NCBI RefSeq assembly: GCF_001984215.1
Contig: NZ_CP019420.1
Coordinates: forward strand, 186,001-250,000
Source: Mycobacterium sp. MS1601
GTDB lineage: Bacteria; Actinomycetota; Actinomycetes; Mycobacteriales; Mycobacteriaceae
DNA length: 64,000 bases
Direction: 5' to 3'
Each line of letters starts with the position of its first letter. The stretch's first letter is position 1. Both the position numbers and the translations under genes were made by a program. The notes beneath the pieces are model-generated. The model saw only the letters and a list, made by a program, of their open reading frames with translations. It was not told where the DNA came from and made no database searches. Positions 18,895-30,029 of the stretch are shown in pieces.

Positions 18895-19901
18895 ACCTGT
18901 TGCGTAAAGCGTCGAAAGCCACACCGTTTCAGGTACTTCCGCGGGTGCGTTGGGCGCAGCAACGTGCCACCTGGCGCGATGCCGACCCGGCCATCATCAA
19001 CTCGGCTCTGCGACGGGCACTCGAGCGCCCGAGCGGCAACTGGTATGTCATCGCCGCCGCAGGCGACATCGGGTCCAAGCCCCATGCCGTCAGCGTCGCC
19101 GGGCGTGAGCTGGTGGCGTGGCGCGACACCGACACAACGCTGCACGTCGCACCCGCCGCCTGCCCGCATCTGGGCGCCGATCTGTGCACCGGCGTCGTGG
19201 ACCGCGGTGCGCTGGTGTGCCCGTGGCACGGCCTGCGGCTGAGCGGCCACCCCCGGCAGGGCTGGGCGCCGTTTCCGGCCCATGACGACGGTGTGCTGGC
19301 CTGGGTGCGCCTCGACGATGTGGGTGGCGAAACACCCACGGAAACACCGATTCTGCCCGTTCGGCCAACGGAACCGCGATTGTCCGCCGTGACGCGTCTC
19401 AGCGGGTTGTGCGAGACGCGGGACATCATCGCCAACAGGCTGGACCCTTGGCACGGCGCATGGTTTCACCCGTACTCGTTCACCCGCCTCGAGGTGCTCG
19501 ACGCTCCGCCGCCCGAAGCCGACCTGCCTGAACACCTGGATCGCTTCGTCGTCGCGGTGACGTTTCACATCGGACGGTTGGGGGTGCCCGTCATCGCCGA
19601 GTTCAGCTGCCCTGAGCCACGCACCATCGTCATGCACATCGTCGAGGGTGAGGGCTCGGGAAGTGTGGTGGAGACGCACGCCACCCCGCTGGGTCCCGGC
19701 CCCGACGGACGCCCACGCACCGCCGTCGTCGAGGCGGTGATCGCGCATTCGGACCGGCCGGGTTTCGTGCACGCCCCTCGCGCCTCGGCGCTGGTGGCGC
19801 CCCTGATGCGCCACGCCGCCACCCGGTTGTGGCGCGACGACTTGGTGTACGCCGAACGGATCTACGCGCTGCGCACCCTCACGGACCACACACCACGGTG
19901 A
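18891..19901 (+). CDS. Rieske [2Fe-2S] protein of the carotenoid operon (DUF5914-like)
   Basis: A 336-residue protein. The Rieske centre is at about residues 90-115: CPHLGADLC supplies Cys-x-His and CPWHGL supplies Cys-x-x-His. After it comes a long domain of unknown fold resembling DUF5914. It overlaps crtU by 4 nt and ends the operon. It may pass electrons to, or work with, CrtU in ring aromatization; that role is inferred from coupling only. Its 3' end overlaps the convergent FHA gene by 23 bp. Confidence 0.8.
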   Translation: MNLLRKASKATPFQVLPRVRWAQQRATWRDADPAIINSALRRALERPSGNWYVIAAAGDIGSKPHAVSVAGRELVAWRDTDTTLHVAPAACPHLGADLCTGVVDRGALVCPWHGLRLSGHPRQGWAPFPAHDDGVLAWVRLDDVGGETPTETPILPVRPTEPRLSAVTRLSGLCETRDIIANRLDPWHGAWFHPYSFTRLEVLDAPPPEADLPEHLDRFVVAVTFHIGRLGVPVIAEFSCPEPRTIVMHIVEGEGSGSVVETHATPLGPGPDGRPRTAVVEAVIAHSDRPGFVHAPRASALVAPLMRHAATRLWRDDLVYAERIYALRTLTDHTPR

Positions 19902-20487
19902 TGGTGGTCCACGCCCCGACGTGGATACGGTCGCCGTCGGCCAGGGTGGTCTCCTGGCCTTCGGCCAGCAGCGTCTCGCTACCGTTGAGGCTGGTACCGT
20001 TCGTGGAGCCCAGGTCGGTGATGGTCAACCCGTCACCACGCACCCGCAGCACGGCATGCTGAGTGGAGACGCCGCGGTCGCTGGGGTGGATACCCAGATC
20101 GATCTCCGGCTCCACCCCCTGCCCCACGTTGCGTCGGCCGATCAGAGTCGTGCTCTGCTGCAGGGTGATTCGACGCTCGGGGAAGAACTGCGGGAAGCCC
20201 ACGGTGTCAGGTCCGCCGCGGGCCAGCACCCGGTTGTAGAACTCCCGGTCGGCGGCCACCACAGCCGTCCACACCGCCACCGAAGTCGACGGCGCCACGG
20301 GAGCGGGCGTGGGCGCAGGGAGCGCCGAGTCGTGGCCGCAGGATTCGCAGAACCGGCCGTTGATCGTCGCACCGCACGCCGAACACACCTGTGCCGCAGG
20401 TGCCGGTGGGGCAGCGGACATCGCCGAACCGCACACATCGCAGTAATCGGTGGCCGTCGAGGTATGTCCCTCCACACAGGTCGGCAT
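19879..20487 (-). CDS. Zinc-ribbon and FHA-domain protein
   Basis: A 202-residue protein. The first 50 residues hold Cys pairs typical of zinc ribbons (Cys4, Cys16/19, Cys35/38, Cys47/50). After a Pro/Ala linker, residues about 110-195 form an FHA domain with GR117-118, S141-x-x-H144 and the LGSTNG loop at 159-164. FHA domains bind phosphothreonine. As last gene of the PknG-like operon it is a natural counterpart of GarA, the FHA substrate of M. tuberculosis PknG, but it lacks a GarA-type N-terminal tail. The start ATG overlaps the VWA stop. Confidence 0.85.
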   Translation of the reverse strand: MPTCVEGHTSTATDYCDVCGSAMSAAPPAPAAQVCSACGATINGRFCESCGHDSALPAPTPAPVAPSTSVAVWTAVVAADREFYNRVLARGGPDTVGFPQFFPERRITLQQSTTLIGRRNVGQGVEPEIDLGIHPSDRGVSTQHAVLRVRGDGLTITDLGSTNGTSLNGSETLLAEGQETTLADGDRIHVGAWTTITVVCGP

Positions 20488-21776
20488 CAGGACTCCTTCC
20501 GCACCCGGGCCGTCTTGGTGGATCTGGCGTCCAGGGCCATCTCGTCGGCGGCGGCCACTTCCCGCTTCAGACGTGCGGTCCCGGTCTTCTCGTCCACCTC
20601 GACAACACCACGCAGCAGGGTGGCAGTGCCGTCGTTGCCGGATTCCACGGCCAGTTCCATCGCCCGCTGCAGTTTGGCGGTGGCCGTCGCGACGTCGCCG
20701 CTCTTGCGTGCACTCAAGCCCTCCTGCACGGCCTGCGCCAGCTCGGCCTGCCCGGTGTAGTGCGCCACCCGTCTGCTGATGCGCGCCGACAGCGCCGAGT
20801 CCGCGGTCCACACCGCCTTGACCAAGCCTTCACCCAGCACCTGGTCGCCTGCGACGACAGTCATTCTGGCGGCGAGCTTTTCCCGCCCCACCGCGGCGGG
20901 CTCGACCTCCACCTGCACGTGGTAGTCACGCTCCTCGGCACCCCAGGCGCCCAGCGGGTACTCCCCTGTCTGCGCTGCGGTGTCGACGCGACGTCCGGTC
21001 AGGTCCTCGACGGTGGGTGCCACCTGTTTGACGAACTCGATGCGGGCACCAGCGGGAGTCCACAGCCGCAGGGTCATCGCCGCGATCGACTTGCCCATCG
21101 ATGAGCGCATCATCTCAGCGAAATCCTCGGCCAGGTCTTCAGGGTCAGCCACGATGTCGACGGTGCCCAGCAATGCCGAGGCGATGGCGCGAAGCTCCTC
21201 GACCACCCAGTCGGTGCCCACGCCACGGCAGTCGCAGGTGAACACTCCTTCGCTCAATCCGATTTCCTGGCCCAGCTGTTCGGGGGTCTCGTGCTCGTCC
21301 TTGCCGTCAGTCAGCAGAATCGCGTGCGCCAGCGCGCCGGGCCGCTGCTCGACGATGCCACGGACGTGGGCCAACCACCTGCCGATGGCGGTGCCACCCT
21401 TGGGCCGCAGCGCGTCGACGGCCCGGGTGGCCTCCGCCTTGGTGCGCGGATCAGCCTGCGCCAGGGCACCGTCGGCCGGATAGACACTGTGCGCCTTGTC
21501 CGACCCCGCGACGATGACGAAGTAGGTGCCGTCCACCAGTTCGTTGATCGCCGCCAGGGTGGCGCGCTTGGCCCCGTCGAACTTCGACGACGGCGAGAGC
21601 ATCGACGTGGAGGTGTCGATGACGATGGCCTCGATCCGTTCGGTGGGCGGGGCCGCGGTCTCGATGCCCGATCCCGCGCTGACGCTGACGATGGCATCGA
21701 CGGTGCCGCTGCCTTCGGCCAGGTACGGGTTGTGGTCGACCTCGACGGAGATACCTTGCACCTGCGGTGAACTCAT
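20487..21776 (-). CDS. VWA-domain protein of the PknG-like operon
   Basis: A 429-residue protein without signal peptide or membrane helix. A von Willebrand factor A domain spans roughly residues 45-235 with a complete metal-ion site: Asp54-x-Ser56-x-Ser58 (DTSTSM), Thr129 (GGTAIG) and Asp157 (TDGKDE). The remainder is a beta-rich and then helical region. VWA plus PP2C plus Ser/Thr kinase recalls the TerY-type phosphorylation triads described in other bacteria. It overlaps both neighbours by a few bases, so equimolar expression is likely. Partner unknown. Confidence 0.85.
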   Translation of the reverse strand: MSSPQVQGISVEVDHNPYLAEGSGTVDAIVSVSAGSGIETAAPPTERIEAIVIDTSTSMLSPSSKFDGAKRATLAAINELVDGTYFVIVAGSDKAHSVYPADGALAQADPRTKAEATRAVDALRPKGGTAIGRWLAHVRGIVEQRPGALAHAILLTDGKDEHETPEQLGQEIGLSEGVFTCDCRGVGTDWVVEELRAIASALLGTVDIVADPEDLAEDFAEMMRSSMGKSIAAMTLRLWTPAGARIEFVKQVAPTVEDLTGRRVDTAAQTGEYPLGAWGAEERDYHVQVEVEPAAVGREKLAARMTVVAGDQVLGEGLVKAVWTADSALSARISRRVAHYTGQAELAQAVQEGLSARKSGDVATATAKLQRAMELAVESGNDGTATLLRGVVEVDEKTGTARLKREVAAADEMALDARSTKTARVRKES

Positions 21777-22759
21777 TGGGCTCCTCCGATCGGGATGAGT
21801 GCGACGGTGATGTTGTCCTGACCTCCTGCTGCCAGGGCGAACTCCACCAGCGCCTGTGCCGCCGAGGACTCGGCAGCACAGAAACGGGCGAGATCCGCGG
21901 CACCCGGCAGATAGTTCCAGAGCCCGTCACTGCACAACAACAGGGTTCCGGGTCCGGTGAGGGTGAGGGTCTGCACGCTGGAATCAGCCCAGGGCTGGGG
22001 TTCGGAGTCGGCCCCCAGCCACCGGGTGATGGTGTGGGCACCCCGCAGCACCGCCGGGGAGTCGGCCGGCAGGCCGGTGCTGATGAGTTCCTGGGCCAGT
22101 GAGTCGTCGACGGTCAATTGCTGTGCCGCCGTGGGATCCTCGGGCAACCAGTATGCCCGGCTGTCGCCGACATTGCCGAGGGCGACCTGTGCGGTACCGT
22201 CGTCTGCGGGTACCACCACCGCAGCGGTGTAGGTGCACGACGGTGAGGTGGACGTCGACGAGCCGGTGTGCGCGGCGGCGGCGGCTTCGGCGGCTTGGGT
22301 CAGTCCGGCCAGAATGGCCGCGCGGGCATCGCTCGAGGCGCTCAGCGCCGTCAGCATCGTGTCCACCCCGGCGGTGGCGGCGGCCAACGATGCCAGTTGC
22401 GCGTCCTCGGAGGTGGACACCCCGTCGCTGACGACGATCGCGAAAGCCGTTGAACTGCCTGCCAGTACCCCGGCGGCAGCGGCGTCTTCGTTGCGGTGGT
22501 GCTCGATGCCACGGTCGGTGACCAGCACGATGGGGGCGATCTCGGCCTCAACACGATCGGGCGCGGCGCGCCGGTGCCCGCAGGCACTGCAGTAGCCGTC
22601 GGTGAAGGTGCTGTTGCCGCAGTCCGCGCAGGCGCCGCCGTCGTCTTTCAGTGGCTGTGGCACCGCAACACGACGGATGTCGGCCAACGACGTCCCGCAG
22701 CCACCGCAGAACCGGTCGGCGGGCGCAACGGGTGCAGCGCAGCTGCGGCACGTGCTCAC
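21773..22759 (-). CDS. PP2C-type Ser/Thr protein phosphatase with N-terminal zinc ribbons
   Basis: A 328-residue protein. N-terminal Cys pairs (4/7 with 18/21, 44/47 with 57/60) suggest two zinc ribbons. The PP2C domain runs from about residue 75 to the end with the usual motifs: RNEDA (Asp92), SDGV (Asp112), GNVGDSRAY, LLCSDGLW and GGQDNITV. It is soluble, unlike PstP. The GTG start overlaps the kinase stop (GTGA), which fixes the start. It is the likely antagonist of the kinase encoded just upstream. Confidence 0.9.
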   Translation of the reverse strand: MSTCRSCAAPVAPADRFCGGCGTSLADIRRVAVPQPLKDDGGACADCGNSTFTDGYCSACGHRRAAPDRVEAEIAPIVLVTDRGIEHHRNEDAAAAGVLAGSSTAFAIVVSDGVSTSEDAQLASLAAATAGVDTMLTALSASSDARAAILAGLTQAAEAAAAAHTGSSTSTSPSCTYTAAVVVPADDGTAQVALGNVGDSRAYWLPEDPTAAQQLTVDDSLAQELISTGLPADSPAVLRGAHTITRWLGADSEPQPWADSSVQTLTLTGPGTLLLCSDGLWNYLPGAADLARFCAAESSAAQALVEFALAAGGQDNITVALIPIGGAQ

Positions 22760-24954
22760 AGCGTTGTCCTGGGTCGGATTTGATTCGCCTTCTCCACCAA
22801 GCTGATTCGCTCCCACACATCCGGCGTCTCATGAGCAAGGTCGCGATAGCTGCGCTCCATCACCGAGCGGACGCCCGGCTCGGTGAACTCCACCCCCAGC
22901 AGCCACTGGGTGCTCGGCGTGCGGCCTGCCTGCAGCCAGGCCAGCGCCGCACCCAGTACGCGCAGTTCCGTGGTCGCCCGCCGCGCAGCCGATTCCAACG
23001 TCAGCGCCGAGGTGCGGGTGCCCGCATCCACCAGAGTCGGTTCGTCGATGGTGTCTATGGTGGCGCCGGCGAGCAGTATCTCCACGGCCGTCACCCGTGC
23101 GGTGGTGTAGAGCGCCGAGGTGGGCGCCACCCGGTCCAGTGCCGCGATGGCCCCCGCGCGGTTACCACGGCGGGCCAGCTCACGTGCCAATCCGAACGCG
23201 GCGCTGACGTAGCCCCGGTCGGTGCGCCACACGACGTCGTAGTAGCGCAGCGCGCGGTCGTGGCCGCCGCGAAGTTCGGCCGCCGCGGCGATGGCCACCT
23301 TGGGCGCCAGCTCGCCGGGCAATGAGGCCAGCACCGCGTCGAATTCCAGTTCGGCTTGTTCGAAATCGCCTTCCAACAGCGCACATTGGCCTGTGTACCA
23401 CCGCAACCGCCAGTCGTTGGGTATCACCGTGTTCAGCTTGGTCAACCGTGCCCTGGCAGCTGCCGGGTTGCCCAGTTCCAGAGAAGCCCGCACCAGCCGC
23501 AGCGGGATCTCCACCGAGGAGGCGTCGTCCTGGCTGGTGCCACTTCGCGACAGCGTTAGCGCCTGTTCGAGCTGCGCGGGCGAGGCGCCACTGGTGGTGG
23601 CCAGCAGCACCGCACCGCTGTCGCCGGGATCCACCACCGGCACCGACAGTGCCACCACCAGGTCGGCGGCCGTCAGCGGCACACCTGCGCCGAACACCGC
23701 CCGCTGGGGACTGAAATAGTGTGACACCCTGGGCTTCTCGACCCCGGTGTTGATGGCGGCGATCTCGTGCAGCACGCCGGTCAGCTGGTCGGCCATCTCT
23801 TCGATGGACGAGAAACGTTGGGCGGGGTCGGGATCGGTGGCCCGCAGGATGGCCCGGTGCAGCGATTCGTACTTCGCCAGCATCGGGACGGTTTCGGGTC
23901 CGGGCAAGGTCTCGACGAAATGGCCCTTTTCCTGTGGCACGTCCATCACCAGCACGGCCAGCGTCCGGCCCACGGTGTAGACGTCGCTGGCCACGGTGGG
24001 TCCGGTCTGGGCTACCTCGGGGGCCTGGTAGCCCACGGTGCCGAACAGCGAACCCTCGGTGTCATCCATGCGGATGACGGCGCCGAGGTCGATCAGTTTG
24101 AGCTGTTCGTCGCTCTGCATCACGTTGTCGGGCTTGAAATCGCAGTAGGCCAGCCCCTGGGAGTGCAGGTAACCCAGGGCCGGGGCGATCTCGATGATGT
24201 AGGCCACCGCCTGGTCCGGCGGCAGCGGGGCCCCCAGCGTCTTGCGGATCTGCTTGAGCGAGGTGCCCCCGACGAACTCCATCACGATGTAGCCGACGGC
24301 CGCACCCGTGGGATCGATGTACTGGACGAAGTTGTAGATCTTGACGATGTTGGGGTGTTCCACCTCGGCCAGGGCCAGCACCTCCGCCGCCGCTGCGGCG
24401 ATGGCATCGGCGTCGTTGGTGTTGATCAGGCCCTTGAGCACCACCCACCGGTTGTGCACGTTGCGGTCCACCGCCAGATAGATCCAACCGAGACCGCCGT
24501 GGGCGATGGCGCCCTGCACCTCGTACTGGCCACCCACCAGATCACCACGGCGTAGCTTGGGCACAAACGAGTACGGGGTGCCGCACTGGGTGCAGAAACC
24601 TTCGGTACGCCCCGGCTGGTCGTTCTGGGCGCGCCCCACCGGCTTGCCGCAGTCAGGATTGCCGCAGAACCGGTTCCGTTCGGGCACTTGAGGATCAGTG
24701 AGGATAGCCGCGGCCGGATCACCTTTGGGCACCCGCGGGATAGTGACGATGCCTGCGCCGAGGCGGCCGCGCGTGCTCGACGACCGGCTGGACCCGGTCC
24801 TGGCCGTGGCCGCCGACCGCGCCGTGGCGACACTGGGTTGCACCATGGCAGCGGTGCCTTCGGGGGCTGTCGATTCGGCGGCGGGCGCGGTGCCGCACAC
24901 AGTGCAGTAGCCGTCGACGACGGTGCCGTCACATCCTGGTTCCGCACACGTCAT
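22756..24954 (-). CDS. PknG-like serine/threonine protein kinase
   Basis: A 732-residue protein with PknG architecture. It has an N-terminal extra Cys4 motif (Cys3, 8, 17, 20), the rubredoxin-like site (Cys97, Cys102, Cys121, Cys124), a kinase domain at about 140-400 and a C-terminal TPR region. Catalytic residues are Lys174 (VVLKG), Asp272 in CDFKPDN and Asp289 of DLG. It differs from M. tuberculosis PknG (YNDLKPEN, as recalled) much more than a mycobacterial orthologue should. The extra N-terminal ribbon and CxxxxC spacing also differ, so it is probably a paralogue. It is coupled to the PP2C gene downstream. Confidence 0.88.
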   Translation of the reverse strand: MTCAEPGCDGTVVDGYCTVCGTAPAAESTAPEGTAAMVQPSVATARSAATARTGSSRSSSTRGRLGAGIVTIPRVPKGDPAAAILTDPQVPERNRFCGNPDCGKPVGRAQNDQPGRTEGFCTQCGTPYSFVPKLRRGDLVGGQYEVQGAIAHGGLGWIYLAVDRNVHNRWVVLKGLINTNDADAIAAAAAEVLALAEVEHPNIVKIYNFVQYIDPTGAAVGYIVMEFVGGTSLKQIRKTLGAPLPPDQAVAYIIEIAPALGYLHSQGLAYCDFKPDNVMQSDEQLKLIDLGAVIRMDDTEGSLFGTVGYQAPEVAQTGPTVASDVYTVGRTLAVLVMDVPQEKGHFVETLPGPETVPMLAKYESLHRAILRATDPDPAQRFSSIEEMADQLTGVLHEIAAINTGVEKPRVSHYFSPQRAVFGAGVPLTAADLVVALSVPVVDPGDSGAVLLATTSGASPAQLEQALTLSRSGTSQDDASSVEIPLRLVRASLELGNPAAARARLTKLNTVIPNDWRLRWYTGQCALLEGDFEQAELEFDAVLASLPGELAPKVAIAAAAELRGGHDRALRYYDVVWRTDRGYVSAAFGLARELARRGNRAGAIAALDRVAPTSALYTTARVTAVEILLAGATIDTIDEPTLVDAGTRTSALTLESAARRATTELRVLGAALAWLQAGRTPSTQWLLGVEFTEPGVRSVMERSYRDLAHETPDVWERISLVEKANQIRPRTTL

Positions 24955-26087
24955 CGCGTACTCCCCCGCTTCTCGGTGAGCAACTCCTGGTAGTCGGCGA
25001 CAGCGCGGGTGACCGCACGCAGATCACAGGGCCGCCGTGACAACAACCCGGACGCGATCTGCGCGCATGACAGCAGATCCCGGTCCTCGCCCAGGCCCAG
25101 TCGGGCCGCTTTGGCCTCGTAGGCGGTCAATCTGCCTTTGAGCTCGGAGCGCCGGTCCAGCAGGCCCTGGGCCAGTTCGGCATCGTGACGGGCGCTGTGC
25201 AGGGCATCGTCGATCCGCATCCGCAGCGCCCGCAGCGCTGCGGGATCCGGCGTCGACAGGGCGGCCAACGCGGCGCGCAGCTCCGGTTCGGCGTCGTCGC
25301 GCACCGGGAAGGCGCCGGTGATCACCGTGCGTTCTGCTTCGATCCTGGCCCGGGCGGCCTCGGTCACCGCGCTCTGCAACAGGTTGAGCCGGGCCGCGGC
25401 CTCCGCCAGTGCCAGCGGCCAGTTGGCTTGCAGCGCTGCGAGTTCGGCGGCCTCGGCAACACTGGTCCGCACCTTGTCCGCGATTACCGCAAGCCGAGCG
25501 TCCACGTCGTGTCGTTCCAGTGACAACGGATCATTGGCCGACAGTGTCAGCAGCTCGGCGAGTTCGGGCGGGACGGGCGCGCCGGCGTTCTCCAGCTGCT
25601 TCTGCAAGGGGGCAAGTCCTCTGGCCACCCGGTTGTTGGCCGCGTCCACGGAGTCGAGAAACTCCACGACCGCCGGATACGTGGCCTGCATGCGCTCGGC
25701 GGTGTCGGCCAGGCCGACGTACTCGACCGTCTCCGCCGATCCCCCGATCTTCCGTTGCGCCAGGGGCACCGCTTGCCGGGACACCTCGTAGTGCCGCTCG
25801 CGCAGCAGCCGAGTCAGCTCGGCCCGCTCCTGGTCGTCGAGCCGTGCCCGGCCCCGCTTGGCCTGCACCGCGTCCAGGATGGTGGTCATCCGGCCGAGGT
25901 CCTGCCAGAGCTGCGCCAGCACGTTCTCGATCACCGCCCACCGCTGAGCGGTCAGTCCGGTCGGCGGGTAGTGCCGCACATGCGTCAACCCCGGGTGATT
26001 GTCCAGCTCCACCATGGTGGCCGACATCGCCGCGACTTCCTTGGCGCGCGAATCGAGTTCGCGGTCGATCTCCTCTGTGCTGAGCAT
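24951..26087 (-). CDS. Helical/coiled-coil protein of the PknG-like operon
   Basis: A 378-residue, Ala/Leu/Glu-rich, almost entirely helical protein with no signal peptide, membrane segment or Cys clusters. I recognise no named domain. It sits between the GlnH-like lipoprotein and the kinase, overlapping the kinase start by 4 nt. No such gene lies between glnH and pknG in the M. tuberculosis locus as I know it. A scaffold or adaptor linking the membrane sensor to the kinase is a guess from position. Confidence 0.75.
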   Translation of the reverse strand: MLSTEEIDRELDSRAKEVAAMSATMVELDNHPGLTHVRHYPPTGLTAQRWAVIENVLAQLWQDLGRMTTILDAVQAKRGRARLDDQERAELTRLLRERHYEVSRQAVPLAQRKIGGSAETVEYVGLADTAERMQATYPAVVEFLDSVDAANNRVARGLAPLQKQLENAGAPVPPELAELLTLSANDPLSLERHDVDARLAVIADKVRTSVAEAAELAALQANWPLALAEAAARLNLLQSAVTEAARARIEAERTVITGAFPVRDDAEPELRAALAALSTPDPAALRALRMRIDDALHSARHDAELAQGLLDRRSELKGRLTAYEAKAARLGLGEDRDLLSCAQIASGLLSRRPCDLRAVTRAVADYQELLTEKRGSTR

Positions 26088-26089
26088 GC

Positions 26090-27058
26090 TCAGTCCTGGT
26101 ACCGCGGCGCGGGCGGACCGGGTGAGGGGCCGAAGCTCTGCAGATGACGGGCATAGAGCCGTTCCCAGGTGCCGTCGTCACGCATGCGCTCCAGCACGGC
26201 GTTGACGAACCGCACCAGGTCGACATTCTCTAACCTGACTCCCACTCCATACGGTTCGACACCCAGGCTGTCGCCCATCATCTCCACGGTGGGGTCTTGC
26301 CTGGCCAGCCCAGCGAGCACGGCGTCGTCGGTGCTGATGGCGTCCACCTGCCCCTGCTGCAGCATCACCAGGCAGTCGGTCCAGCTGCTCACCCCGACCA
26401 ACTCGGGGCGCTTCTGCAGGTTGTACAGGGTCGCCATGGACGTGGTGCCGTTGACCGCGCACACCCTCTTGCCCAGGAGATCGGTTGCCGCGGAATCGAT
26501 TCCTGCTCCTTTGAGGGCAAGCACCCGCTGTTCGGCGTTGTAGTACACAGTGGAGAAGCCGATGTTCTGCTTGCGGGCGCAGGTGATGGAGAACGTCCGC
26601 ACCACCAAGTCCACCTGGCCGGACTGCAGCGCCGCTTCTCGCTGGCTGGCGTCGACCACCCGCAGGTCGACCCGGTCGGGATCGCCGAAGATGGCGCGGG
26701 CAATCTCGTGCGCGATGTCGATGTCGAAGCCCTCGAGCTGACCTGTGGAGGGGTTGCGGAAACCGAACAGGAAGGTGTTCTGGTCCACCCCCACCACCAG
26801 ACGACCGCGCTCCTGGATTGCGGCCATCGACGATCCCGGCGGCATAGCCCCCGGCGCGGGCAGCGGTCCGGGCCGCAGGCTGGCCTCTCGGTCGCAGTCC
26901 ACGGGCGGCGTCGCCGGTACCTCGGTGACATCCTGGGCGCCGGCCGGGCTGGGGTACACCGGCGAGACCGCAACCGGCTGTTCGGGTGCCGAGGACGAAC
27001 ATCCCGCCAGCGTCACGGCCGCCACGGCGGTGACGACCAGTGTTGCCCATTGCGTCAC
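26090..27058 (-). CDS. GlnH-like solute-binding lipoprotein
   Basis: A 322-residue exported lipoprotein. The N-terminal hydrophobic stretch ends in the lipobox LAGC with Cys20, followed by a Ser/Pro-rich linker. A family-3 solute-binding domain starts near residue 85 (LVVGVDQNTFLFGF, GQLEGFDIDIAHEIARAIFG). In M. tuberculosis, GlnH binds Asp/Glu and works with GlnX to control PknG rather than with an ABC transporter. No permease or ATPase gene is present here, which supports the same sensing role. The ligand is unknown. Confidence 0.85.
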   Translation of the reverse strand: MTQWATLVVTAVAAVTLAGCSSSAPEQPVAVSPVYPSPAGAQDVTEVPATPPVDCDREASLRPGPLPAPGAMPPGSSMAAIQERGRLVVGVDQNTFLFGFRNPSTGQLEGFDIDIAHEIARAIFGDPDRVDLRVVDASQREAALQSGQVDLVVRTFSITCARKQNIGFSTVYYNAEQRVLALKGAGIDSAATDLLGKRVCAVNGTTSMATLYNLQKRPELVGVSSWTDCLVMLQQGQVDAISTDDAVLAGLARQDPTVEMMGDSLGVEPYGVGVRLENVDLVRFVNAVLERMRDDGTWERLYARHLQSFGPSPGPPAPRYQD

Positions 27059-28311
27059 AGGAACTCCTTGAGCCGGGGCCAGAGTCCGACCACGGCGGCC
27101 GCAGCCGCCAACACCATCAATACCAGCGTTGCGGTGGGACTCCAGGACAAGACGTTCCCGGCCCGGGCAACATCGTCACGCAGTGCGGCCCTGGTCTCTT
27201 CGATGCCGTCTCGCAAGTCGGCTTCGACAGCACCGAACTGGGCGGCCGAGGCGTTCGGATCGGGGCCGATGGCCTGGTTCAAGGCGGCGCCGTAGTCACC
27301 GCTGAGATAGAACTCGACGTGTCGGCGGTGGCTCTCACCCCACGCCTGTAGGTCCGGGTCCTGCAATTGCTCCTGCAGCCGGGCCATTCGCTCGTTGAAC
27401 GACTTTTCCGAGGCCGTGATGTCGCCGCGAGCGATCAGCTGCAGCGTCTCGTCGGTGCGCACCTGCTGCACCAGGATGCGAGCCTCGGCGAGGTCGGAGT
27501 AGCGATTCCCTTGAGCCCGGCCGTCGTTGATGGCAGCGCCGGCCAGCACCGTGGCGATCAACACCCAGCCGGCCACCCCCACCACCAGGCCGGCACAAAC
27601 CAGCAGCCCCAGGTTGAACGTCCGGTTGGTCCGTCTGGTGGCGATCACCGAGCTCACCACGATCGCCGCGATCACCAGCACCAGAAGCACCAGCGTGACG
27701 ATGGGCGTCGACCCCACCGCTCGCTGGTCCCGGTCGAGGGCGGCCATCTTGTCCTCGAAGATCTGCTGCGCTCCCGGCAACAGCGAGTTCTGCATCAACG
27801 CCGATGCCTCACGCAGATAGGCCGAGCCGACCGGAAACCCCTGCCGGTTGTTGACCCGCGCCGACTCCACGAGACCTGCGTAGGTGGCCAACTGCAGAGA
27901 GATGTCGGCGGCGGCGGTTCTGGTGGCGATATCAGTGGCACCCGCAGTGACATCGGCCAGTGCCGCGGAAGCATCGGCAAGCGCGCCCTTGTAGCGGTCG
28001 CGCATTTCCGAGGTCTCGATGCCGCCGGAGAGGAACGACGCCGCCGCAGCAGCGTCGGCAGCTGACAGTTCGGCGTAGAGGTCCTGCGCCGCATACGCCA
28101 GCGGCTCGGACCGGTCGAGCACCGCGTCGTGCCGGGCGATCCTGGAATCGAGTTGGCCGCCACTCACCACGCCGGTCAACACGCAGGCTCCGGCCAACAG
28201 CACGGCGATGAGGCTCAGCACACCGGGAGTGGTACCGGCGAAGCGCCGCAGCCACGCCATCGAGGCGCGGGTGTCCACCGTGCGCGGTGTGGCCATCGCC
28301 TTCACCCCCAT
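27055..28311 (-). CDS. GlnX-like transmembrane sensor protein
   Basis: A 418-residue membrane protein and first gene of the seven-gene operon. Hydrophobic helices are near residues 30-52, 203-226, 233-258 and 393-412, with two helical extracytoplasmic regions rich in Ala and Glu between them. This matches the layout of GlnX (Rv0412c), which pairs with GlnH. It overlaps the glnH-like gene by 4 nt. A shorter start at Met6 (MATPRTVDTR) is possible. It should relay ligand binding by the lipoprotein across the membrane. Confidence 0.8.
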   Translation of the reverse strand: MGVKAMATPRTVDTRASMAWLRRFAGTTPGVLSLIAVLLAGACVLTGVVSGGQLDSRIARHDAVLDRSEPLAYAAQDLYAELSAADAAAAASFLSGGIETSEMRDRYKGALADASAALADVTAGATDIATRTAAADISLQLATYAGLVESARVNNRQGFPVGSAYLREASALMQNSLLPGAQQIFEDKMAALDRDQRAVGSTPIVTLVLLVLVIAAIVVSSVIATRRTNRTFNLGLLVCAGLVVGVAGWVLIATVLAGAAINDGRAQGNRYSDLAEARILVQQVRTDETLQLIARGDITASEKSFNERMARLQEQLQDPDLQAWGESHRRHVEFYLSGDYGAALNQAIGPDPNASAAQFGAVEADLRDGIEETRAALRDDVARAGNVLSWSPTATLVLMVLAAAAAVVGLWPRLKEFL

Positions 28312-28348: not shown

Positions 28349-29044
28349 TCAGTCGAACAGCCGGTCGAGGGCTCCCTGCTCCAATTCCACCCAACGAGCG
28401 ACGTCACTGCGAACGGCGTCGACCTCGTCCGGACTCAGGTGGTGGGCGCCGTCCGGTGTCAGCCGGCAGATGTCCATAGGGCCGCCCACACTCGGAGAGG
28501 AGGCGTCCAAGGCATCGAGCACACGCAATGCGGCAACGACACCATGGTCGAGATCGCGTTCGGTCATCCGGAAGTGAGCCAGCAGCGCGTGGGCCTGCTG
28601 CGCCATCGGAGCGCCGCTGCCGATGGCCTGAAAGCCGGTTTCTTCGTGATGGCCGAGCAGGCCGTTGGGATCCAGGTCGATGATGAACGGTTGGTCTCCG
28701 ACGTATCCGGCGGCCAGCAGATAGGTGGCCGGCGTGCCCGCCTTCTGCTGCCCGGGAACGTCCTCGATGAAGGCGTCGTAGTGATGCTGGAACACCGGAA
28801 GTGCCTTGGCCTGCAACGCATGACCGATGTTGCGGGCCTCCATGACGGCATCGGCCTCCTCCCGGAAGATCTGCTCGATGTCGTAGAGCACCGCCCGCGA
28901 GCCGCTGCCGCCCCACGCCGCGTGGGCACCGAGCGGGTGGAGCTTCTGGGCCGGATAACTCAGCCCGCGGCCTGGATCGGTGATCTGCGAGTCCGATGCC
29001 AAGGCGATGCCGTTGGCGCATTTGATGGCGAGAACCACAGTCAT
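28349..29044 (-). CDS. Proteasome-beta-like Ntn hydrolase
   Basis: A 231-residue protein starting MTVVLAIKCANGIALASDS. If Met is removed, Thr1, Asp17 and Lys33 fall exactly at the catalytic positions of 20S proteasome beta/HslV peptidases, so the start at 29044 is well supported and longer frames are rejected. The body continues with proteasome-like sequence (TYLLAAGYVGDQPFIIDLDPNG). It is distinct from PrcB, and no prcA, mpa or pup gene is nearby. It probably forms a self-assembled peptidase or amidase ring. Only 22 nt separate its start from that of the divergent polymerase gene. Confidence 0.82.
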   Translation of the reverse strand: MTVVLAIKCANGIALASDSQITDPGRGLSYPAQKLHPLGAHAAWGGSGSRAVLYDIEQIFREEADAVMEARNIGHALQAKALPVFQHHYDAFIEDVPGQQKAGTPATYLLAAGYVGDQPFIIDLDPNGLLGHHEETGFQAIGSGAPMAQQAHALLAHFRMTERDLDHGVVAALRVLDALDASSPSVGGPMDICRLTPDGAHHLSPDEVDAVRSDVARWVELEQGALDRLFD

Positions 29045-29066
29045 GACTCCACCGTAAGGTGAGGCC

Positions 29067-30029
29067 ATGACAGTGCACGAGGAGCGTGCCGGGGTCGAGC
29101 TGACGAATCTCGACCAGCCCCTGGGCCCCGACTCCGGTGCCACCAAACGTCACCTGCTGGACTACCTCGACGCGGTGTCCGATCGTTTGGTTCCGGTGCT
29201 GGCGGACCGTCCGCTGACGGTGCTGCGGGCACTGCGCGGACGTGCGCCGTTCATGCAGAAGAACGTGCCGAAGTACACCCCGGAATGGGTGCGGACCGTG
29301 CCGATGTGGGCGGAAACTTCCAAGCGCGAGATCCACTACGCGGTGTGCGACGACCGCCGGACCTTGCTGTGGTTCGGTAACCAGCGCGCCATCGAGTACC
29401 ACCCGACACTGGGACTGACCGACAACATCTACCGCCCGACACATCTGGTGCTGGATCTCGATCCGCCCGACGGTTCCGACTTCTCGGCGGTGGTAGCCGT
29501 CGCACACCTGGTGCGCCAGGCGCTCACCGACAGCGGACTGTCCGGTGCGCTGAAGACCAGCGGCTCGCGCGGAGTGCACGTCTTCGTGCCGATCGACGGT
29601 TCGGCCCGGGTGGACGACGTTGCCGCGGCCACCCGTGCGCTTGCCGCCAGGGCCGAGGCGCTGGACCCAGACCTGGCCACCACCGCGTTCATCGTGGAGG
29701 ACCGTGCCGGCAAGGTCTTTGTGGACGCCACCCGCGCGGGAGGCGCCACCGTGGCGGCGGCCTACAGTCCACGGTTGCGGCCGGGCACACCCGTGTCGTT
29801 CCCGCTGGCCTGGTCGGATCTGGAGCGGGTGAATCCGGGTGATTTCACCGTGCGCACCGCAGTCGACGCGCTGGACGGCCACGACCCGTGGGCCGAGTGC
29901 ATGCCCGCCGCGCAACAGCTGCCCACCGACCTGATCGAGCAAGGCCACACCATTCCGGTGGCACGGGTGGCCGCCATGCACGAGGGCAAGCGGCGAGCCA
30001 AGGCCAGACGCGAAGGCGACGCGCGGTGA
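29067..30029 (+). CDS. LigD-type primase-polymerase (PolD)
   Basis: A 320-residue stand-alone polymerase domain of the LigD/archaeo-eukaryotic primase family. Metal-binding carboxylates are Asp130 and Asp132 (LVLDLDPPDG) and Asp220 (KVFVDATR). The nucleotide-binding segment LKTSGSRGVH supplies Lys163 and His171. Such stand-alone paralogues in mycobacteria (PolD1/PolD2) carry out ribonucleotide-preferring gap filling and end repair. No ligase or nuclease domain is fused. It overlaps the next gene by 4 nt (GTGA). Confidence 0.88.
   Translation: MTVHEERAGVELTNLDQPLGPDSGATKRHLLDYLDAVSDRLVPVLADRPLTVLRALRGRAPFMQKNVPKYTPEWVRTVPMWAETSKREIHYAVCDDRRTLLWFGNQRAIEYHPTLGLTDNIYRPTHLVLDLDPPDGSDFSAVVAVAHLVRQALTDSGLSGALKTSGSRGVHVFVPIDGSARVDDVAAATRALAARAEALDPDLATTAFIVEDRAGKVFVDATRAGGATVAAAYSPRLRPGTPVSFPLAWSDLERVNPGDFTVRTAVDALDGHDPWAECMPAAQQLPTDLIEQGHTIPVARVAAMHEGKRRAKARREGDAR

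Follow-up and report, generated by a model that had tools for sequence, protein, structure and literature searches.

The 64,000-nucleotide window analyzed here (positions 186,001 to 250,000 of contig NZ_CP019420.1, assembly GCF_001984215.1, from Mycobacterium sp. MS1601) carries seven open reading frames (ORFs), all on the minus strand and arranged head to tail between 28311 and 19879. In order, they encode a GlnX-like membrane protein (X), a GlnH-like lipoprotein (H), a helical protein that we term h, a PknG-like kinase (G), a PP2C phosphatase (P), a VWA domain protein (V) and an FHA domain protein (F). An earlier note, made from the DNA sequence alone, had described this operon and named its products; we recover every ORF at the ends given there, and family models confirm the domains. 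From glnX to the FHA gene, the junction overlaps are 4, -2, 4, 4, 4 and 1 nt, the negative value being a 2-nt gap between glnH and h. The tight coupling described in the note therefore holds throughout, but its ATGA or GTGA signature does not extend to the VWA/FHA junction, a TGATG with a 1-nt overlap. Our overall interpretation, in which confidence and doubt are evenly balanced, is that this is a seven-gene PknG operon kept across Actinobacteria and paralogous to a three-gene operon of the same genome, and that it likely encodes an amino-acid-controlled phospho-switch whose VWA protein is predicted to act as an ArnB-like hub for the kinase, the phosphatase and an FHA reader.

GlnX, GlnH, helical-protein and kinase genes

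The operon's first gene (27055..28311; all coordinates below are likewise on the minus strand unless stated) encodes a 418-residue GlnX-like membrane signal transducer, which scores 390.7 bits against family model NF058618, exceeding the cut-off of 250, and fails the canonical-GlnX equivalog NF041460 (234.5 bits versus a cut-off of 780). The 322-residue solute-binding lipoprotein encoded by glnH (26090..27058; lipobox LAGC) was identified by SBP_bac_3 and by alignment to 6h1u and 6h2t. On that alignment we scored the direct Asp-contact side chains listed for M. tuberculosis GlnH (PMC6069109), namely R147, T162, S164, R169, W232 and D250. All six are kept in the window, where the water-mediated K161 is replaced by R, and also in 11 of 13 other mycobacterial seven-gene copies; this second operon is likely an amino-acid sensor. 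The Streptomyces-type copies (L020, L023-L026) are changed in five cases of five, with W232 replaced by Q and D250, the aspartate at the ligand-backbone contact place, by G or N, and judging from these residues their ligand may be other than Asp or Glu. At locus L007 (G552:C75), in a same-genus genome, we also find a third PknG on a long tree branch, with its own GlnX and GlnH and with altered GlnH contact residues (RNATRMD).

The kinase gene (22756..24954) encodes a 732-residue PknG paralog with zinc-ribbon, rubredoxin-like, Ser/Thr kinase and TPR domains (PF16919, PF00069, PF16918). It matches the PknG structure 2pzi at 641 bits, and its kinase motifs VVLK, DFKPDN and DLG, aligned with 2pzi, look intact by inspection. 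The N-terminal zinc ribbon has the form C-x4-C-x8-C-x2-C (24895..24948). In the rubredoxin-like domain, C-x4-C forms the first metal knuckle in all 15 mycobacterial copies of the seven-gene type that could be evaluated, the window included, and in 5/5 copies of family f4; three-gene kinases have C-x2-C there (23/23), as do many further lineages with the seven-gene form. The C-x4-C form may alter redox regulation of PknG. Between the sensor genes and the kinase lies h (24951..26087; 378 residues), for which no Pfam, NCBIfam or PADLOC family gives a match at E <= 0.001. Its AlphaFold2 model (predicted local distance difference test, pLDDT, 94.6) is nearly all-helical and elongated, with no match in the PDB by Foldseek at E <= 0.001. 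The distribution of h follows VWA-type operons, and a scaffold role is our guess.

Phosphatase, VWA and FHA proteins

The 328-residue PP2C phosphatase (21773..22759; GTG start; PF13672, PF00481) carries two N-terminal zinc ribbons, which score 27.0 bits against the double zinc ribbon family PF12773, just under its cut-off of 27.3. By inspection of the PP2C motifs, its aspartates look intact. The second ribbon (22580..22630) is of the DGYCxxCG type and resembles that of the kinase, and in 53/53 evaluable loci two or more CxxC pairs stand ahead of the PP2C domain. The first, C-x2-C-x10-C-x2-C (22697..22750), has the cysteine spacing published for the zinc finger of archaeal ArnA (C21, C24, C35 and C38; PMC12852372).

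The 429-residue VWA protein (20487..21776; VWA_3 and VWA_3_C) is modeled with the architecture of ArnB: a VWA domain, a beta-sandwich and a C-terminal helical bundle. It matches ArnB along nearly its full length, at 14% identity. The metal-ion-dependent adhesion site (MIDAS; DTSTS/GGT/TDG) is intact, and D54, S56, S58, T129 and D157 are invariant in 39/39 sequences. The most conserved 7-mer of the family, by lowest mean entropy among 423 stretches of that length, is VAHYTGQ (20748..20768); the model's secondary structure puts it at the sandwich-to-bundle junction, and by topology it would lie near the published ArnB docking face. The C-terminal tail RSTKTAR (20505..20525) is a predicted phospho-tail, with R418, S419, T422 and R424 invariant in 39/39 and with a mean pLDDT of 66 in the last block of the model. 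The final gene (19879..20487) encodes a 202-residue ArnA-like protein with zinc ribbons, one of them C-x2-C-x8-C-x2-C (20338..20385), and an FHA domain (PF00498; 19915..20145). In the alignment, S141, H144 and N163 are invariant in 31/31; presumably they form the phosphothreonine pocket. Ribbons in this protein extend to Streptomyces-type genomes (5/5), and none was found in L073. The FHA-family profile matches ArnA entries 8s05_C and 5a8i. In our reading, the VWA and FHA proteins form the output switch, and GarA, still a candidate substrate, may be shared.

Conservation of gene order

Our PknG_TPR surveys took in 296 genomes at phylum level, 296 at class level and 200 at order level, sets that partly overlap; we picked loci from the matches and read their gene order with hidden Markov models (HMMs) built for this analysis. 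Among 123 picked loci, 32 have the order X-H-h-G-P-V-F, nine have the rotated order h-G-P-V-F-X-H and 24 have X-H-G, the remaining 58 being partial, either reduced or cut by contig ends. Clustering of the seven genes is far beyond chance, with 41/123 PknG-picked loci holding the full set, and the scattering among relatives that the earlier note had named as a risk to its proposal is not seen. Within the genus, 17/248 genomes encode a VWA_3_C domain; besides the window, 13 of 16 such loci hold the full ordered set and three (L046, L050 and L059) are cut by contig ends.

Named genomes were also scanned with the VWA alignment: among the 80 best of at least 589 relatives, the window's exact order is found in 51 (including Mycobacterium, Nocardia, Streptomyces, Kitasatospora, Streptacidiphilus, Saccharothrix, Kibdelosporangium, Actinoplanes and a Solirubrobacteraceae metagenome-assembled genome, MAG) and the rotation in seven (in Actinomadura and Actinoallomurus). 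Streptomycetaceae commonly carry the full set, and in some of their genomes the sole PknG found belongs to it. Two further arrangements occur. Reduced h-G-V operons without PP2C or FHA genes are found in families f71, f2 and f4 (L066, L068, L079, L095, L278-L281), mostly with a GlnX-like gene after the VWA gene. Family f86 (L245, L252, L255, L262 and others) has PknG paralogs that lack the N-terminal ribbon, with little upstream sequence in L252, and none of the other six genes was detected nearby.

A second PknG and the probable origin of the three-gene operon

The earlier note had argued that the kinase is a paralog and had suggested a search for a second pknG beside glnX and glnH. Such a locus exists in the same genome, with a PknG_TPR match at C1:3473637-3474656 and a GlnX match at C1:3477011-3478237; it comprises X-H-G only, together with what we take to be an acetate-kinase-like ORF. 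In the tree the window kinase lies outside the canonical clade, bearing out its paralogy. Re-searching 19 named genomes for PknG gave two matches in each of three Mycobacterium genomes and three to four in seven Nocardia genomes (in Nocardia G970, one kinase is split into two matches), and each of these ten holds one PknG that is canonical-like by score. Streptacidiphilus, Actinoplanes, Dactylosporangium and the Solirubrobacteraceae MAG have a single PknG match per genome, and in the Streptomyces-type genomes G539, G443 and G486 the only match is of the seven-gene type.

In a 90-row PknG tree, the window belongs to a clade made up of 15 mycobacterial copies of the seven-gene type (100, starred) that is sister to the three-gene clade of the same family (99, starred), and the starred branches require the three-gene label to change three times or more. 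A second tree of 22 named rows and 42 rows of the first joins the Mycobacterium and Nocardia seven-gene copies as sisters (99, starred), then adds the three-gene clade of their own family (98, starred). The three-gene clade of family f71, apparently Pseudonocardiaceae because its other rows pair with Kutzneria and Saccharothrix, lies apart from that of the window's family, and forcing all three-gene rows together costs 60.6 log units (approximately unbiased, AU, test p = 0.00175). In this tree, the same-genus locus L048 is nearest to Mycolicibacterium canariasense L136.

These groupings bear on the idea that the window copy was recently acquired by horizontal transfer from Streptomyces-like bacteria. 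Its patchy occurrence in the genus (17/248) fits such an event, as does the start of the PknG_TPR match at position 36, shared with several Streptomyces-type copies, and the window has none of the flanking genes that subsets of mycobacterial loci hold in common. However, the kinase clusters first with the seven-gene copies from Mycobacterium and Nocardia and next with the three-gene kinases of its own GTDB family, away from Streptomycetaceae, and we consider recent transfer very improbable.

The earlier note had treated the extra genes as additions to a GlnX-GlnH-PknG set; the tree points the opposite way, to a three-gene set that is likely derived. The same seven genes, in the same order, turn up in widely separated branches, which loss explains more simply than gain on several occasions. 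We therefore infer that trimming happened independently at least twice: on parsimony grounds, the three-gene operons of f71 and of the window's family are likely separate reductions of the seven-gene set.

Zinc ribbons and a model for the operon

Most VWA-type operons encode a PknG with an N-terminal ribbon, which was present in 0/23 three-gene PknGs of the first set and in 1/24 (L249) after 40 more loci were added. Kinase ribbon and VWA presence are concordant in 184 of 194 evaluable loci (214 in all), and in 99/107 when VWA-picked loci are excluded. Across 11 independent pairs that differ in VWA, the ribbon changes in the same direction in seven, in the opposite direction in none and not at all in four (p 0.016). 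The corresponding ratios are about 7.7:0 for h, 6.5:0 for FHA and 2.0:0.1 for PP2C. The ribbon, which is lost together with VWA and h, thus depends on VWA, h or FHA, and the pair test cannot separate the three. We consider VWA the likeliest partner because the published ArnA ribbon sits on ArnB.

We propose the following order of events. Asp or Glu would close the GlnH lipoprotein, and GlnX would carry the signal across the membrane and on to the PknG TPR domain, as the literature proposes for the canonical set. PknG, and perhaps PP2C, would dock on the VWA protein through their zinc ribbons, with the long helical h tethering the complex to GlnX or PknG. Active PknG might then phosphorylate the VWA helical bundle or the invariant RSTKT tail, shifting the FHA protein from loose ribbon docking to tight phosphothreonine binding, as in ArnA-ArnB, until PP2C undoes the phosphorylation. 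The earlier note had envisaged a ligand-to-phospho-output pathway with its own eraser and reader; that proposal is supported at the level of operon anatomy and conservation.

Several observations weigh against this model. The kinase ribbon follows h and FHA about as closely as it follows VWA, so that any of the three may be its partner, and it occurs without VWA in five loci (L029, L031, L062, L283 and the three-gene locus L249). The PP2C ribbons persist in 8/8 loci where VWA was not found, among them L060, which is too short to tell. Conservation of the second presumed docking loop of VWA is not out of the ordinary (rank 97 of 423). The FHA-profile scores to ArnA are close to those of GarA, and a search with the single FHA sequence of the window gives no ArnA match at E <= 0.001. 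Streptomyces-type copies of GlnH, and some others, depart from the Asp-contact residues. The trees were built by quick methods and rooted at the midpoint, and the direction from seven genes to three is inferred. Finally, a GarA/OdhI-like gene is present in 46/46 genomes, the window's included (about 163 bits or more; 25/46 over the family cut-off), and PknG may act just on GarA.

This last point favors a different account, in which the operon is a second route to a known output: GlnH-GlnX-PknG senses Asp or Glu and phosphorylates GarA/OdhI, freeing 2-oxoglutarate dehydrogenase, while PP2C, VWA and FHA are tuning accessories. The kept Asp contacts of the window's GlnH fit this account, as do the lineages whose sole PknG match is of the seven-gene type. 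However, the window's genome and the ten named Mycobacterium and Nocardia genomes also hold a PknG with a canonical-like score, and such an output gives no need to hold PP2C, VWA, FHA and h together. Moreover, the kinase's N-terminus is unlike that of canonical PknG, the region reported to recruit GarA/OdhI (PMC8546545). We regard this route as unlikely, though a serious competitor.

Returning to the hub model, we extend it, with slightly more doubt than confidence, to the ancestral PknG system. This may have been a ribbon-wired particle with an ArnB-like VWA protein as its hub, to which zinc ribbons and a helical scaffold joined GlnH-GlnX, kinase, phosphatase and reader, as a bacterial counterpart of ArnA-ArnB. 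The textbook mycobacterial PknG pathway would then be a remnant that shed the hub along with the kinase plug, a loss repeated elsewhere on at least one occasion. PknG has been studied intensively in actinobacteria, and its current model rests on the three-gene operon; should that be a trimmed version, the wiring of the complete system, from the partners that dock on the kinase to the eraser and reader, has been missed.

Neighboring genes

A proteasome-like Ntn hydrolase, absent from the earlier note, is encoded 37 nt upstream of glnX (28349-29146), with weak PDB matches to proteasome beta subunits (E about 2e-4). Counting from MTVVLAIK, we take Thr1, Asp17 and Lys33 to be placed as in those subunits. 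An HMM for this protein found no match beside glnX at any other PknG- or VWA-picked locus examined. Divergent from it, on the plus strand (29067-30029), lies a gene for a protein with a LigD-type primase-polymerase domain (PF21686); the listed 5' ends of the two genes overlap.

Comparison with known systems

The canonical GlnX-GlnH-PknG operon of mycobacteria and corynebacteria shares with the window a GlnX family protein, an Asp-type GlnH, a PknG with rubredoxin-like, kinase and TPR domains, and the relative order of the three genes. The window differs in adding h, PP2C, VWA and FHA, and its kinase belongs to a separate clade and bears the N-terminal ribbon so rare among three-gene kinases (1/24).

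The earlier note had likened the operon to TerY-type triads. It does fit the TerY-P definition as we understand it (VWA, PP2C and kinase in one operon), but this likeness is weaker than that to ArnA-ArnB, with its near-full-length ArnB match and its combination of ribbon and FHA. Actinobacterial GAP1-N2 neighborhoods likewise combine kinase genes, often with a zinc ribbon, with PP2C and vWA genes; they are GTPase-centered, and the portions of that report consulted do not name GlnX, GlnH or PknG (PMC7159879). An origin as a stress or conflict module of either kind, TerY-P-like or GAP1-N2, that captured a GlnH-GlnX sensor would account for the kinase, PP2C and VWA triad. We think this improbable, since the TPR and rubredoxin-like domains make the kinase a true PknG, the set is conserved together with GlnX and GlnH, and VWA, PP2C, FHA and h have no PADLOC match (neighboring ORFs are partly annotated). 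A related VWA protein, Catenulispora acidiphila caci_2163 (PDB 4fx5), has a structure without a known function.

The archaeal ArnA-ArnB switch of Sulfolobus resembles the proposed hub in its three-domain VWA protein with an intact MIDAS, in the adjoining gene for a zinc-ribbon and FHA protein, and in a Ser/Thr kinase and phosphatase acting on the pair under nutrient input, roles that in the window are predicted from its genes. The window set differs in sharing its operon with genes for a membrane sensor and PknG, in having PP2C in place of PP2A, and in the extra zinc ribbons of its kinase and phosphatase. If true, this link would join bacterial and archaeal nutrient switches of one architecture.

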